The notes beneath the pieces are model-generated. The model saw nothing but the letters and a program-made list of their open reading frames with translations. It was not told the DNA's origin and did no database searches. DNA of 49,116 bases, from positions 1 through 49,116 of the forward strand of contig CAIRYW010000004.1 in NCBI GenBank assembly GCA_903882905.1, read 5' to 3'. This document shows, piece by piece, positions 26,040 to 38,268 of the stretch. The position numbers and the translations under genes were made by a program. Every line of letters starts with the position of its first letter. Within the stretch, counting starts at the first letter, position 1. Source of the stretch: an uncultured bacterium (lineage in GTDB: Bacteria; Patescibacteriota; Minisyncoccia; Phycocordibacterales; CAIRYW01).

Positions 26040-27806
26040 TTATTCTAAAGTCGCTTTTATTCTTCTTACTCCTTGGGAGACAGCTTCTTCTTTTGAGATT
26101 TTAAAATGACCTAGTTCTGAAGTGTTTTTTACATGAGGACCTCCGCAAAATTCCTTTGAAAACGCTTGATCAATTGTATCTCCAATATAATAAACAGTTA
26201 CTTCGTCAGGATATTTTTCTCCAAAAAAATGGAGCGCGCCAGTTTTTTCTGCTTCTTCTTTTTTAAGAGTTACGACATTTACATGAAGAGCTTGTCCAAT
26301 TTTTTCATTCACAATTTCTTCAACTTTTTTCTTTTCCTCGTCAGTCATTTTTTGTGAATGTATAAAGTCAAAACGTAGGCGTTCTGGTGTTATATTGCTT
26401 CCCTTTTGTGAGACGTGGCTGCCTAGTACAGTTCGCAAAGCTTGATGCAATAAATGTGTAGCTGTGTGGTATTGAATGGTTTTTTCATCAGTTCCTCCAA
26501 GACCTCCTTTAAATTTTTTCTCTGCTCCTACTCGAGAAAGGTCTTGGTGTTTTTTGAACTCTTCATCAAATTCTTTATCGTCAACTGAGATATTTTTTTC
26601 TAATGCTAATTCTTTTGTTATTTCAAATGGAAAACCATAAGTAGAAAAAAGTATAAAAGCATCTTTTCCAGAAATTCCATGGGAAGAGATTTTTTCAAAT
26701 TGCTTTATACCGTCTTTCAAAGTTTTTCTAAATTTCTGTTCCTCTTTTTCAATCTCAGTCTTGATAGTTTCTTTTTTTTGTTCTAATACTGGGTAAACAT
26801 TTTTGTATTTTTCAATTACGGTTTCTGCAATCCAAAACAGCGAGCTTGGTTTCATTCCAAGTTTATCAGCGTGCATTACAGCTCTTCGAAGCAGTCTGCG
26901 TAAAACATATCCCTGATCTGTGTTTGAAGGTGTTACATTATCTCCTATAAGAAATACCGAGGTCCTTACGTGATCTGCGACGATTCTTTTTGACCTTTCA
27001 TTATCATCAGTAGCAAATTCATTTATTTTTTCAATTGTATCTGTAAAAAGATCTGTATCAAAAATCGATTTCCATTTTTGGATAACTAAAGTTAATCTCT
27101 CAAGCCCCGCTCCTGTATCAACATTTTGATTATTAAGTTTTCCAATTATTTTTCCATCCTTCTTTTCATATTCCATAAACACATTGTTCCAAATTTCAAC
27201 AACTTTTTGTTCCTTGTCTGCTTGTTTAAACTCCTCGATACTTAAATCACCAAGACCTATTTCAGTTGTATCGTAAAACATTTCTGTATCAGAACCACAT
27301 GGGCCATTTTCACCAACGCTCCACCAGTTTGATTTTGCTCCCATAAAATAAATTCTATTTTTTGGAATACCAACTTTTTCCCATATATCAGCTGAGACAG
27401 TATCTTTTGGTGCATTTGAATCGCCTTCAAAACAAGTAATATAAAGTCTTTTTGGATCAAGTCCAAAACCTTCTTTTGATGTTAAAAGTTCAAAACTCCA
27501 TTTAATTGCGTCTTCTTTAAAATAATCGCCCAAGGACCAATTACCAAGCATTTCAAAAAAAGTGTCATGAGTAGCATCACCAACCTCATCAATATCTTGT
27601 GTGCGAACACATTTTTGAACATCCACAATTCTTTTTCCTTTTGGATGTGGAACTCCTAAAAGATACGGAACAAGAGGTTGCATGCCCGCAGTATTAAAAA
27701 GCACAGATGGGTCATTTTCAGGCACTAAAGGAGCAGATGGAATGACAGCATGTCCCCTTTTCTCAAAAAAATCTAAAAATTTCTGTCGTATTTCTTCTGA
27801 TTGCAT
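26040..27806 (-). CDS. alaS: alanyl-tRNA synthetase, minimal form
   Basis: 588 residues from the ATG at 27806. An open frame continues to 27929, but those codons overlap the preceding gene and its terminator. Class II catalytic core with FNTAGMQPLVPYLLGVPHP, VGDATHDTFFEMLGNWSLGDYF and GAGLERLTLVIQ. The editing site has HTATHLLH (His447/His451) and CGGPH (Cys554/His558). Two parts usual in AlaRS are missing: the beta-barrel between the tRNA-binding helices and the editing domain is reduced to a short linker, and the C-terminal DHHA1/C-Ala domain is absent (normal length ~870). It should still charge and edit. Confidence 0.95.
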   Translation of the reverse strand: MQSEEIRQKFLDFFEKRGHAVIPSAPLVPENDPSVLFNTAGMQPLVPYLLGVPHPKGKRIVDVQKCVRTQDIDEVGDATHDTFFEMLGNWSLGDYFKEDAIKWSFELLTSKEGFGLDPKRLYITCFEGDSNAPKDTVSADIWEKVGIPKNRIYFMGAKSNWWSVGENGPCGSDTEMFYDTTEIGLGDLSIEEFKQADKEQKVVEIWNNVFMEYEKKDGKIIGKLNNQNVDTGAGLERLTLVIQKWKSIFDTDLFTDTIEKINEFATDDNERSKRIVADHVRTSVFLIGDNVTPSNTDQGYVLRRLLRRAVMHADKLGMKPSSLFWIAETVIEKYKNVYPVLEQKKETIKTEIEKEEQKFRKTLKDGIKQFEKISSHGISGKDAFILFSTYGFPFEITKELALEKNISVDDKEFDEEFKKHQDLSRVGAEKKFKGGLGGTDEKTIQYHTATHLLHQALRTVLGSHVSQKGSNITPERLRFDFIHSQKMTDEEKKKVEEIVNEKIGQALHVNVVTLKKEEAEKTGALHFFGEKYPDEVTVYYIGDTIDQAFSKEFCGGPHVKNTSELGHFKISKEEAVSQGVRRIKATLE

Positions 27807-27832
27807 GTGAATAAATGTAGCATAAAAGCAAC

Positions 27833-27868
27833 ATAAAAAAAATTCCGGAACATTTTGACAATGTCCGG
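27833..27868 (-). terminator. intrinsic terminator abutting the 94-residue gene
   Basis: On the minus strand CCGGACATT and AATGTTCCGG (27860-27868 and 27845-27854) pair, followed by a run of eight T. The hairpin begins at the base after the stop codon of the gene upstream. Confidence 0.75.
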
Positions 27869-28153
27869 CTAGTGGTGGCAACAACTCACTTTCCCACTTA
27901 GATGCTCTTCGGGAATAGTAATTCCACATTTCCGAGCAAGCTCCAATGCTTCTTTCTCATCTTTCTCGGATAATGGTAAGGGGAAATAAGTTCCACCACC
28001 TGGTCCCTGCATTTGTTGTGGTGTGCTGACTTTCAAAAACTGCTGGGCATCTCTCGGTATATAGTTAAAATCTTCGGGAATAGCTTTTCTAAGTATTCCT
28101 CTGATTCTCACGAATCTTTGTCCTGCGGTTTCGGTAGTAGTATCTTGTGACAT
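27869..28153 (-). CDS. small protein with a CCHH C-terminus, unknown function
   Basis: 94 residues, Gln/Pro/Gly-rich in the middle (STPQQMQGPGGGTYFPLPLSEKDEKEALELARKCGI) and ending GKVSCCHH, a possible metal-binding tail. Base composition is visibly higher in GC than flanking genes. It has an intrinsic terminator immediately after the stop, so it is a stand-alone unit placed between the UDG gene and alaS. Upstream lies a small inverted repeat (GTTGTAT...ATAACAAC, 28154-28180) that may be an operator. No family recognised. Confidence 0.6.
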   Translation of the reverse strand: MSQDTTTETAGQRFVRIRGILRKAIPEDFNYIPRDAQQFLKVSTPQQMQGPGGGTYFPLPLSEKDEKEALELARKCGITIPEEHLSGKVSCCHH

Positions 28154-34836: not shown

Positions 34837-37800
34837 TTACTCTTTGACTACAAAATTTACTATTCTGTTTTTGACGGCAATTGTTTTAATAATTTCTTTT
34901 CCCACTAATCTCTCTGAAATTGATCCAAAACTTTTTGCTTTTTCTATCATTTCATCCTCTGAAGTGTCTTTCGGAAGCATTATAACTTCCCTAGCCTTCC
35001 CGTTTATTTGAATTGCAATCGAAACATCTTCAATTAGGAACTTTTCATCAACTGTCGGCCATTTTGAAAGGAAAATTGATTTTTTATTACCAATATTATT
35101 CCATAATTCTTCTGTAATATGAGGAGCTAGTGGAGCGAGAATCTGCAAAAATTTCTCAAAAGATTTTTTTGTGATTTTTTTGTTTTCGTATATAGAATTT
35201 AAGCAAATCATCAAAGCTGAAACAACTGTATTAAATGCTGAGTTTTCAATATCCTCACTAACTTTTTTTACAGCTTTATTTATTGCTGTTGTTACTTCTC
35301 GTGGCTCGTCTTTGCTCAGAAAATCTGTGAGTGCGAAAACTCTTTCAATAAATCTTCTTGTGCCAATGATACCTTTATCATTCCATGCAATTTGGTTGCC
35401 GTGGGGCCCCAAAAAAGCCATATAAAGACGCATTGTATCCACCCCATATACTTTTACTATGTCATCTGGATTAATCACATTTCCTCTGCTCTTAGACATC
35501 TTTTCTCCATCTGGTCCTAAAATAATTCCGTGCGGAACTCTTTTGACGTAAGGTTCTTTAGTCGTAACTAAACCTCGGTCAAATAAAAATTGATTCCAGA
35601 AACGAGAATAAAGTAAATGAAGTGTTGTGTGCTCCATTCCTCCAAAATACAAATCGACTGGCGTCCAATATTTTAATTTTTTCTTGTCTGCAAATTCTTT
35701 TGTATTTTTTGGATCACAATACCTAAGCCAATACCAACTACTTCCTGCCCACTGAGGCATGGTATTTGTTTCTCTTTTTGCAATTCCAGGTTCAAAAATT
35801 TTGTGAATATCTGTGAACTTTTTCAGTATTTGATTTTCAGACAAAACCTCTTTGAGTTTTTCTTCGCCTTGATAGCCCCAAGAACAGCCAACCAACTTTC
35901 TTTTATCAAGTGTGTTTTCTAGTTCATAAACATCTGCTTGAGTGTCTGTAAAATAATAAACATTTTTAATATCGGTTTTCCATGCTTTACAGATAGTTTT
36001 AATTTTTTCTACTTTTGAATGATGATGATTTCCAGCAAGAAAATGCGTGTATTTAAGTTTTGATTTTTTTAATGGTCCTTTTGAATATAAGTCGTAGCCA
36101 GAGCTAACAACAGCAATTTTTGTATTTTTTATTTTATTTATCTCTTTAATAAAATCATCAAAAAGATTGTATTTAAGTTTTGTCATTGCCTCTGCATAAC
36201 CAATACCAAAATTGTGGTATTCTTTTTTACCTTTTTCATCCAATTCATTTGCGTGCCAAGGAGTTGCACTAAAATATTCGTGGAGATTTTTGTGGGATTC
36301 CTCCATATCTTTTGAATTTCCCATATCTACTCTAGCCTGAAGACTTTGTTTGTATGTGTCACCAAGTACTCCATCAAAATCAAAAATTAAATATTTAGTT
36401 TTATTTTTTTCTACTTCGCAATTCGGACATTTTGTGTTGACCCATTTTTCTATTCCAGCAAGCGGAGATTCACCTGTACCTGTCGGCTCATAATTTTTTA
36501 CTTTTGGAAGTACAACTGGCAAATCTTTATCAGGCACAGGAACAACTCCACATTTTTCGCAGTGAATTACAGGAATTGGTTCTCCCCAATATCTTTGACG
36601 AGAAAATACCCAATCGCGAAGTTTGTATTTTGTGACTAGTTTTCCTCCCACAAATTCTGTAATTTTTTTCTTTGCGTCTTCTGATGTGAGTCCTGAAAAT
36701 TTATCTGAATTAATCAAAATTCCTTCTTCACCAAAAAGTTCTTCTGTATTATTTTGAGCGCGCAAAATAAATTCATGTTCAGATTTGGTTCCACCTTTTT
36801 TTATTAGTTCAATTCCTTCATTGATTGGAAACCATTCGCTTGATTTTATGTGCCCATCACTAGCTTCAATTTTTTGATCTTCATCAACCTCTACAGCATA
36901 AGCTTTCACTCTTCTCGCTCGATTTATATCATCCTTTGGGTAAATTGATTCTGACGATCCAAGATACGTTTTAACTGTGCCGTTTTGGTATCCTGTTTCT
37001 TCCTCAACTTCTCGGATTACAGTGTCGTAGTCAGTCTCATTCTCTTCATATTTTCCTCCAGGTAGAGTGTAATAACCTTCGTTAACCAATAAAATTTTTC
37101 CATTTTTTATTATTACAGCTTTTACAACATCTCTTCTGTTTAAATCTGGAAGAGGTTTGCCGATTAGTCTTATTACTACTTCTTTTCGTTCTAAATTAAA
37201 TTTCTTTGCAAAGGCAAAATCACGCTCGTCGTGTGCGGGAACAGCCATAATTGCCCCTGTTCCATATGAACCCAAAACATAATCGGCTATCCAAATAGGA
37301 ATTTCTTCATTGTTAGCAGGATTGATAGCTTTTACGCCTTTTATTTCAATTCCTGTTTTTTCTTTCCCTTCAGCAGTTCTGTCTATGTCAGATTTATTTT
37401 TTGTATCTTCAATATATTTTTCTGTCTCTTTTTTATTGTCTATGTTCAATCGGGAAATTAGTGGATGCTCAGGTGCAAGAACCAAATAAGTTGCACCAAA
37501 AATTGTATCAGGTCTTGTAGTGAAGACTTTTATTTTTTTTTTCTCTAAACTCGCACCTCGCACCTCAAAACTTATCTCCGCTCCTTCAGATTTACCAATC
37601 CAATTTTCTTGTTGAAGCTTTATTGCTTCTGGCCACTCTGGAAGATATTTTAGACCGTCTAAAAGTTTTTCTGCATAGTCAGTGATCTTTAGATACCACT
37701 GTCTTAATTCTTTTTTCTCAACAATTGCTCCACATCTTTCACATTTACCATCTATTACCTCTTCGTTTGCTAATCCTGTCTTGTCCACTGGGCACCAATT

Positions 37801-38268
37801 AATCAATCCAGTCTTTTCATATGCAAGTCCAGCTTTTAAAAATTCTAAAAATATTTTTTGGGTCCATTTGTAATATTTTGGGTCTGTTGTATTTATTTCT
37901 CGTGACCAGTCAAAACCAATTCCCCAACCTTGAAGTTGTTTTTTTGCATTCGCTACATTTTTCTTAGTAGAAATTTCTGGGTGAACTTTGTTTTTGATAG
38001 CAAAGTTTTCTGCAGGTAATCCGAAAGCATCCCATCCAATAGGATAGACAACATTTTTTCCATTCATTTTGTGATACTTAGAAATAATGTCCCCAGCTGT
38101 ATATGGGCGAAGATGCCCCATATGGAGTCCTGTTCCTGATGGATATGGAAATTCAACCAAGACAAATTTTTTCTCTTCCTTTGCATTGTCCTTAGCAACA
38201 AAAACTTTTTTTGTTAACCAGTGTTTTTGCCACTTAGCTTCTATTTTTTTTGGATTATATTTACTCAT
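34837..38268 (-). CDS. leuS: leucyl-tRNA synthetase with inserted Nudix and HAD domains
   Basis: 1143 residues; a usual bacterial LeuRS has ~800-880. Catalytic core: HMGH (49-52) and KMSKS (923-927). CP1 editing domain ~225-545, with TTRPDTIFGATYLVLAPEHPL (250-270) and GTGAIMAVPAHDERD (336-350). A Nudix domain occupies ~378-505, after FAFAKKFNLERKEVVIRLIG and before the normal GILINSDKF. A HAD domain occupies ~621-826, inside the zinc-ribbon: NTKCPNC leads into HAD and AKRETNTMPQWAGSSWYW resumes LeuRS. The rest is intact: VINPDDIVKVYGVDTMRLYM and a normal C-terminus. It is one continuous frame without stop or shift. The start overlaps the stop of the upstream gene (TAATG). Confidence 0.96.
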   Translation of the reverse strand: MSKYNPKKIEAKWQKHWLTKKVFVAKDNAKEEKKFVLVEFPYPSGTGLHMGHLRPYTAGDIISKYHKMNGKNVVYPIGWDAFGLPAENFAIKNKVHPEISTKKNVANAKKQLQGWGIGFDWSREINTTDPKYYKWTQKIFLEFLKAGLAYEKTGLINWCPVDKTGLANEEVIDGKCERCGAIVEKKELRQWYLKITDYAEKLLDGLKYLPEWPEAIKLQQENWIGKSEGAEISFEVRGASLEKKKIKVFTTRPDTIFGATYLVLAPEHPLISRLNIDNKKETEKYIEDTKNKSDIDRTAEGKEKTGIEIKGVKAINPANNEEIPIWIADYVLGSYGTGAIMAVPAHDERDFAFAKKFNLERKEVVIRLIGKPLPDLNRRDVVKAVIIKNGKILLVNEGYYTLPGGKYEENETDYDTVIREVEEETGYQNGTVKTYLGSSESIYPKDDINRARRVKAYAVEVDEDQKIEASDGHIKSSEWFPINEGIELIKKGGTKSEHEFILRAQNNTEELFGEEGILINSDKFSGLTSEDAKKKITEFVGGKLVTKYKLRDWVFSRQRYWGEPIPVIHCEKCGVVPVPDKDLPVVLPKVKNYEPTGTGESPLAGIEKWVNTKCPNCEVEKNKTKYLIFDFDGVLGDTYKQSLQARVDMGNSKDMEESHKNLHEYFSATPWHANELDEKGKKEYHNFGIGYAEAMTKLKYNLFDDFIKEINKIKNTKIAVVSSGYDLYSKGPLKKSKLKYTHFLAGNHHHSKVEKIKTICKAWKTDIKNVYYFTDTQADVYELENTLDKRKLVGCSWGYQGEEKLKEVLSENQILKKFTDIHKIFEPGIAKRETNTMPQWAGSSWYWLRYCDPKNTKEFADKKKLKYWTPVDLYFGGMEHTTLHLLYSRFWNQFLFDRGLVTTKEPYVKRVPHGIILGPDGEKMSKSRGNVINPDDIVKVYGVDTMRLYMAFLGPHGNQIAWNDKGIIGTRRFIERVFALTDFLSKDEPREVTTAINKAVKKVSEDIENSAFNTVVSALMICLNSIYENKKITKKSFEKFLQILAPLAPHITEELWNNIGNKKSIFLSKWPTVDEKFLIEDVSIAIQINGKAREVIMLPKDTSEDEMIEKAKSFGSISERLVGKEIIKTIAVKNRIVNFVVKE
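35791..36408 (-). other. HAD-superfamily phosphatase domain inserted in leuS
   Basis: Residues ~621-826 of LeuRS. Motif I IFDFDGVLGDT (Asp630, Asp632), motif II VVSSGY (Ser722 or 723), motif III Lys752 in HHSKVEKI and motif IV FTDTQADV (Asp775, Asp779) are complete, with a helical cap between motifs I and II. It should be an active magnesium-dependent phosphohydrolase; substrate unknown. Confidence 0.85.
36754..37137 (-). other. Nudix domain inserted in the leuS editing domain
   Basis: Residues ~378-505 of LeuRS. The Nudix box starts at Gly405 (GKYEENE) and continues through REVEEETGY (419-427), fitting G-x5-E-x7-R-E-U-x-E-E-x-G-U with all acidic residues. It is preceded by KAVIIKNGKILLVNEGYYTLPGG. 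The domain should be catalytically competent. Confidence 0.88.

Follow-up and report, generated by a model that had tools for sequence, protein, structure and literature searches.

A leucyl-tRNA synthetase with inserted Nudix and HAD domains, and related hydrolase inserts in branched-chain synthetases of Patescibacteria

We analyzed a 49,116-nucleotide stretch of DNA from an uncultured bacterium of the Patescibacteriota (contig CAIRYW010000004.1 of assembly GCA_903882905.1; hereafter the window), focusing on a gene for leucyl-tRNA synthetase (LeuRS) whose single open frame also encodes a Nudix domain and a HAD phosphatase domain (Table 1).

The window LeuRS and its two inserted domains

Judged by its motifs, with those of both synthesis and editing all in place, the window protein is an intact LeuRS, and it contains two complete extra enzyme domains. 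It scores 985.4 bits against TIGR00396 (cut-off 548.4), and Pfam places the LeuRS editing domain at residues 221–367 and the anticodon-binding domain at 991–1106. The motifs lie at 49–52 (HMGH), 250–260 (TTRPDTIFGAT), 345–350 (AHDERD), 614–617 (CPNC) and 923–927 (KMSKS); the HIGH and KMSKS signatures and the Thr-rich and Asp editing signatures are all present, and most of their columns are invariant or nearly so across 35 LeuRS. In the alignment with Thermus LeuRS (1h3n), the breaks fall at chain residues 372/374 for the Nudix domain and 487/489 for the HAD domain. In an AlphaFold2 (AF2) model built from 35 sequences, confidence is high for the LeuRS body and the Nudix domain and poor for the HAD domain, and the body matches LeuRS structures with Z scores of 39–43. 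The window protein thus shares all catalytic, editing and zinc motifs and the fold with bacterial LeuRS (TIGR00396; structures from Thermus, Neisseria and Escherichia coli), but with its two inserts it has 1143 residues, against 822–880 in the top-ranked full-length chains; the Mycoplasma mobile chain is shorter (637 residues). Pfam and the motif positions therefore agree with the first-pass annotation, which had described a LeuRS frame of 1143 codons holding two complete domains with intact catalytic motifs. An intein or homing element was considered and rejected, as Pfam gives only Nudix, HAD and synthetase families for this protein and no splicing or endonuclease domain.

Table 1. Positions of the LeuRS gene, its parts and other features in the window
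Feature	Position	Strand	Basis
LeuRS gene, 1143 residues, single open frame	34837..38268	-	ATG start to stop; TIGR00396
N-terminal LeuRS part, residues 1-376: HMGH, zinc motif WCP..CERC, editing TTRPDT and AHDERD	37141..38268	-	
Nudix insert in the editing domain, residues 377-505	36754..37140	-	PF00293 and AF2 model
Nudix box GKYEENETDYDTVIREVEEETG, residues 405-426	36991..37056	-	motif positions
Middle LeuRS part, residues 506-618: SRQRYWGEPIPVIHCEKC and CPNC knuckles	36415..36753	-	Thermus LeuRS alignment, motif positions
HAD phosphatase insert, residues 619-827, immediately behind the CPNC zinc knuckle	35788..36414	-	PF13419
C-terminal LeuRS part, residues 828-1143: AKRETNTMPQ, KMSKS, anticodon-binding domain	34840..35787	-	
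Short gene for alanyl-tRNA synthetase	26040..27929		
Three consecutive open reading frames of 432, 367 and 575 residues	21843..26035	-	no Pfam match

The Nudix domain matches PF00293 over residues 379–485 (E 1.5e-15; 57.8 bits, cut-off 21.1), its GX5EX7REUXEEXGU box is complete, with E423/E424, and AF2 models residues 381–500 with a predicted local distance difference test score (pLDDT) of 72–92 and with strands and helices in Nudix order. Its best NCBIfam matches are models of the MutT/pyrimidine-dNTP diphosphatase and YtkD kinds, all below cut-off, and none of these sub-threshold matches is to a model for hydrolases of diadenosine tetraphosphate (Ap4A). The window Nudix has the intact box in common with enzymes of these kinds, but it falls far under every equivalog cut-off (best 32.8 against 156 bits) and is embedded in LeuRS. 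By BLAST its closest relatives are other LeuRS inserts (L108, L112 and L065; 1e-14), against 2e-7 for the best free Nudix gene of its own genome (own1, on contig C19), whereas the Nudix tree, which is poorly resolved and has long branches, places it, with weak support, next to two free genes (94/88). Eight of the genome's ten free Nudix genes entered both comparisons, the other two giving no box. The first-pass annotation had counted three free Nudix genes in the genome and proposed them as a possible source of the domain; those three are the ones in the window alone, the whole genome (G000) holding 11 Nudix matches, that is, the insert and ten free genes, and a source among them is not borne out, the nearest relatives by BLAST being LeuRS inserts and the tree being poorly resolved.

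The HAD domain matches HAD_2 (PF13419) over residues 627–780 (E 5.3e-7; 30.4 bits, cut-off 23.8; E 2.3e-8 for the insert alone). Motifs I (DxD), II (S/T), III (K) and IV (DxxxD) are all present, with FDFDG from residue 629 (D630, D632) and TDTQAD at 774–779, and they are retained in all five relatives aligned. NCBIfam gave no match for this domain. It has the four motifs in common with HAD_2 hydrolases of subfamily I (phosphoglycolate phosphatase-like enzymes, beta-phosphoglucomutase and the Bacteroides HAD pyrophosphatase); unlike these, the close relatives seen are inside or beside LeuRS. A phage origin of the inserts was also rejected: viral contigs held no relative of the HAD domain and three weak ones of the Nudix domain.

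Could this architecture be an artefact, produced by a chimeric assembly or by a nested gene that starts independently? Beyond its oddness nothing speaks for this, and we regard it as very nearly negligible. The frame is unbroken, and in an independent genome of the same family (G002) a single match covers window-protein residues 1–1142 with 66% identity and includes the two inserts, located at the same sites, which argues against a chimera. The same HAD family also occurs in LeuRS of other lineages (L116/L294 and L295). As to a nested gene, a Met precedes the domain in just 9 of 32 Nudix inserts, which makes independent initiation improbable in most cases (GTG and TTG starts were not tested). 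Between G002 and the window, the HAD domain has a nonsynonymous divergence (dN) of 0.32 and a synonymous divergence (dS) of about 2.2, the latter near saturation, and is therefore under strong constraint. The two Nudix domains are only 33% identical between flanks of 69–82% identity, which points to fast change or replacement of the Nudix domain. Another genome of the family (G003) has a LeuRS with Nudix and without HAD, and among 197 genomes of the order searched, HAD lies inside LeuRS only in the window genome and G002. Thus, on the question raised earlier of whether the inserts are fixed in a clade, both recur in G002, but the HAD domain is missing from G003 and the Nudix domain has turned over often (see below). 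Soluble pyrophosphatase (PF00719) has no match in the window genome or G002, both with HAD in LeuRS, and is present in G001 and G003; it is without a match in 21 of the 41 genomes searched, the window genome included, although other pyrophosphatase families were not searched. The HAD domain as a replacement pyrophosphatase is a lead only.

Inserts in LeuRS, IleRS and ValRS of relatives

LeuRS was aligned from 59 of 60 related genomes, G001 being without it. Inserts of at least 100 residues are found in 26 of the 59, at about six sites, near window-protein residues 208, 240, 370, 541, 573 and 619. Among named loci, Nudix at 370 is found in Doudnabacteria, Taylorbacteria, Uhrbacteria and Magasanikbacteria. 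Pfam assigned ten inserts off the common Nudix site to Ser_hydrolase (four), Nudix (three) and Ham1 (one), and left two without a match; of these, one shares 58% identity with the Ham1 insert. Doudnabacteria LeuRS carry serine hydrolases at 241, a Magasanikbacteria LeuRS (L116) has Nudix and HAD in tandem at 370, this HAD being 43% identical to the one in the window, and L128 has a methyltransferase at the same site. Deeper in the phylum, a LeuRS of 1795 residues (L295, at G199:C23:3000-11000) has five inserted enzyme domains: HAD_2, Ham1, Nudix, a further one that BLAST identifies as Ham1-like although Pfam gives no match, and a nucleotidyltransferase near the Aminoglyc_resit family. The methyltransferase and nucleotidyltransferase inserts are in more distant relatives. 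The inserted domains look active, judging from their catalytic residues: the Nudix box is canonical in 26 of 32 LeuRS inserts, and the serine hydrolases keep their Ser and His in every one of 19 rows, which come from 17 inserts and two free genes.

Several further LeuRS variants were seen. The insert of L111 has no Pfam match, and its label "ASCH" was given by eye only. Inserts of about 120–130 residues without a Pfam match lie near residue 240 in L042, near 420 in L145 and at frame residues 250–365 in L315; by eye those of L042 and L315, and perhaps L145, look alike, and their sites differ. In L045, L067 and L082 (G015, G037 and G051), about 171–185 residues of the editing domain are deleted, and in L064 (G034:C10) LeuRS lies in two frames, the first ending in a partial Nudix domain. 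Outside Patescibacteria, two gut metagenome-assembled genomes named Bacillales and Tenericutes (L133 and L138) have Nudix at the same LeuRS site; these domains group with the Nudix domain of L058 (100/99), which suggests transfer.

In isoleucyl-tRNA synthetase (IleRS), an interruption of about 190 residues lies behind the RYWGTPLPVW motif in most relatives. The inserted domain belongs to the histidine phosphatases (His_Phos_1, 1.4e-28 in the window genome, where it spans frame residues 498–681 of IleRS L185 on G000:C21), and 37 of 41 genomes have it within IleRS; as to the other four, in G018 IleRS lies at the end of a contig, in G023 and G030 it is uninterrupted, and G039 has no IleRS match. 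This is the unbiased figure, since the 40 genes of our IleRS alignment were mostly picked for being interrupted. In all 39 aligned inserts the residues R, H, R, E and H, which we take to be the catalytic residues of histidine phosphatase, are identical. IleRS is a stronger and probably older case than the window LeuRS. Valyl-tRNA synthetase (ValRS) is normally plain; however, G013 and G036 have a histidine phosphatase in it at a seemingly matching place, and three further ValRS in the phylum carry one, one of them twice. Reading 18 frames with a histidine phosphatase gave 13 IleRS, three ValRS and two of neither kind. IleRS can hold other enzymes in addition, namely a serine hydrolase and Nudix (L296) or GNAT (L303), in both cases together with the histidine phosphatase.

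Among the synthetases examined, the inserts are restricted to LeuRS, IleRS and ValRS. Methionyl-tRNA synthetase (MetRS) was matched in 38 of 41 genomes and has no insert in any of these, its frames of 269–534 residues including no long one; the arginyl- and glycyl-tRNA synthetases (ArgRS and GlyRS, both named by eye) in the IleRS clusters have even lengths; and the alanyl-tRNA synthetase (AlaRS) and LysRS-type synthetases in the window have no extra domain. The window AlaRS is itself short. AlaRS usually has a C-terminal domain, and this one, with 629 residues and only the catalytic and SAD domains, apparently does without it.

Nudix turnover and subfamily A1

We reconstructed a LeuRS tree from 93 rows, with insert columns excluded and six partial rows removed beforehand. 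On this tree the minimum number of changes is at least 18 for Nudix at 370, 10 for serine hydrolase and three for HAD, which indicates that Nudix at 370 has been gained, lost or replaced many times. The majority of the Nudix inserts form one subfamily, A1, defined by a profile match at E 1e-14 or better. The profile was made from 11 LeuRS inserts, which match by construction, so the informative result is the small number of free genes that it finds. In the 60 genomes, 20 of its 21 matches are inside LeuRS, at four sites, and most of these genomes hold other Nudix candidates without an A1 match. In 379 genomes of the phylum it has 63 matches, 51 of them in frames longer than 640 residues; the 22 that were read, 21 long frames among them, comprise 20 LeuRS, one IleRS and one free gene. 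At 70 bits or more, 49 of 50 matches are in frames above the same length, and the lone free gene, in G464, is located 2.4 kb ahead of LeuRS; the gene immediately before that LeuRS is, by eye, another Nudix-like one. A1 thus appears to be almost confined to LeuRS. The window Nudix is not a member, as there is no A1 match in its genome.

These results bear on the idea, suggested in the first-pass annotation, that an insert makes or breaks a nucleotide messenger, such as Ap4A, in step with leucine charging. When the A1 profile was compared with the PDB, an Ap4A hydrolase was among the better matches (6e-6), which would fit such signalling, but decapping and effector Nudix enzymes matched equally well or better. 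Moreover, the window Nudix lies outside A1, and HAD, Ham1-like and histidine phosphatase domains are not expected to share such a substrate. We therefore consider signalling decidedly improbable. The first-pass annotation had also suggested removal of Ap4A or mischarged intermediates; these, with weak profile support for Ap4A, would be among several candidate substrates compatible with the domain kinds.

What the inserts may do

We speculate that tethered hydrolases clear activated, damaged or by-product nucleotides or esters at the branched-chain synthetases, a reading to which we assign a probability of roughly 0.4. LeuRS, IleRS and ValRS of Patescibacteria would then serve as a chassis in which small enzymes can be swapped, most of them hydrolases (Nudix, HAD, Ham1-like, histidine phosphatase and serine hydrolase), each insert being an active tethered enzyme that removes a phosphate compound or ester made or met by the editing synthetase, for example adenylates, dinucleoside polyphosphates, pyrophosphate or non-canonical nucleoside triphosphates. 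With a common class of target, different hydrolases could substitute for each other. For the window protein, the Nudix domain would split a nucleoside-diphosphate compound and the HAD domain a phosphomonoester or pyrophosphate. We favor tethered clearance because the frequent insert kinds hydrolyze phosphate compounds or esters and sit beside an editing enzyme that makes adenylate, pyrophosphate and aminoacyl esters.

The same enzyme kinds occur both as inserts in, and as genes beside, branched-chain synthetases. The one close free homologue of the HAD insert among the 197 genomes (49% identity, in G103) lies 10 bases downstream of LeuRS. In G002, a free Ham1-like gene (Pfam Ham1) directly precedes LeuRS and shares 48–51% identity with the inserts in LeuRS of G033 and G025. 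A serine hydrolase gene adjoins IleRS or lies within two genes of it in six genomes, and also directly follows IleRS in G270; six of the 15 IleRS neighbourhoods viewed were chosen for a serine hydrolase already found near IleRS. Such adjacency supports coupling, but it equally supports a rival in which neighbouring house-cleaning genes land in tolerant loops and are merely housed there, active and selected, while serving the general nucleotide pool, since neighbours also supply insertions by recombination. The insert kinds do resemble genes near synthetases (Nudix, Ham1-like, Maf-like, dut, HAD and serine hydrolase, several of them identified by eye), the small genomes are rich in Nudix genes, as in the window genome, and non-hydrolase inserts exist. 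Housing of this sort is harder to reconcile with three observations: ArgRS and GlyRS of the same clusters, and MetRS, are not used; one Nudix subfamily is nearly confined to LeuRS; and the IleRS phosphatase is kept across the order. As insertions would naturally come from neighbouring genes, and as enzymes other than hydrolases make up a few of the inserts, we place this tentative alternative close behind tethered clearance.

Besides the adjacency, several observations weigh against tethered clearance. An insert is absent from over half of the LeuRS, and turnover is high. Methyltransferase, GNAT and nucleotidyltransferase inserts, rare as they are, fit a permissive landing site as well. In addition, the AF2 model of the HAD domain from two sequences (pLDDT 58) is too poor to name a subfamily; with this model, the best-ranked Foldseek matches were HAD hydrolases (best E 1.3e-3, none at or below 0.001).

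Insert diversity and fast turnover would also suit an arms race, in which the domains protect against a poison, be it an antibiotic or a toxin, that acts as a mimic of aminoacyl-adenylates or attacks charged tRNA, destroying or modifying it at the place where it binds. Microcin C immunity enzymes act in an analogous way on their poison. The insert kinds include GNAT and the Aminoglyc_resit-type nucleotidyltransferase, and adenylate-mimic poisons of LeuRS are known, agrocin 84 being named in the title of a structure. However, the IleRS phosphatase is stable rather than fast-changing, and of the three proteins submitted to PADLOC only the window Nudix gave a match, to one candidate family. Protection of this kind thus seems improbable.

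Returning to tethered clearance, one could go further and picture a modular chassis with a shared plug-in hydrolase kit as an additional layer of quality control or detoxification beside aminoacylation and CP1 editing, its modules being interchangeable at a few recurrent docking loops. We think this extension rather doubtful.

Synthetases with appended domains are already known. In the titles and abstracts we found nothing on Nudix, HAD or histidine phosphatase inside LeuRS, IleRS or ValRS, most subscription papers and preprints being outside the scope of the search, and the tRNA synthetase passages of PMC1949818 mention no such inserts. One related case is on record, the NCBIfam family NF040702 (ileS_w_GNAT), known to us by name, which likewise joins a class I branched-chain synthetase to an extra enzyme domain. 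It differs from the window case in both synthetase and domain, and it is curated as a single exception family, not as an exchangeable set.

In summary, three sister synthetases have repeatedly gained, lost and swapped hydrolases in very small genomes, which raises the question of why an editing synthetase would need a phosphatase or pyrophosphohydrolase. Testable proteins are at hand, G002 and G003 form a natural pair with and without the HAD insert, and candidate functions can be proposed for otherwise unassigned Nudix, HAD and Ham1-like genes beside LeuRS. If the coupling is true, it would represent new chemistry in translation quality control; if the domains are uncoupled, they would be a clear case of active enzymes housed in essential ones.

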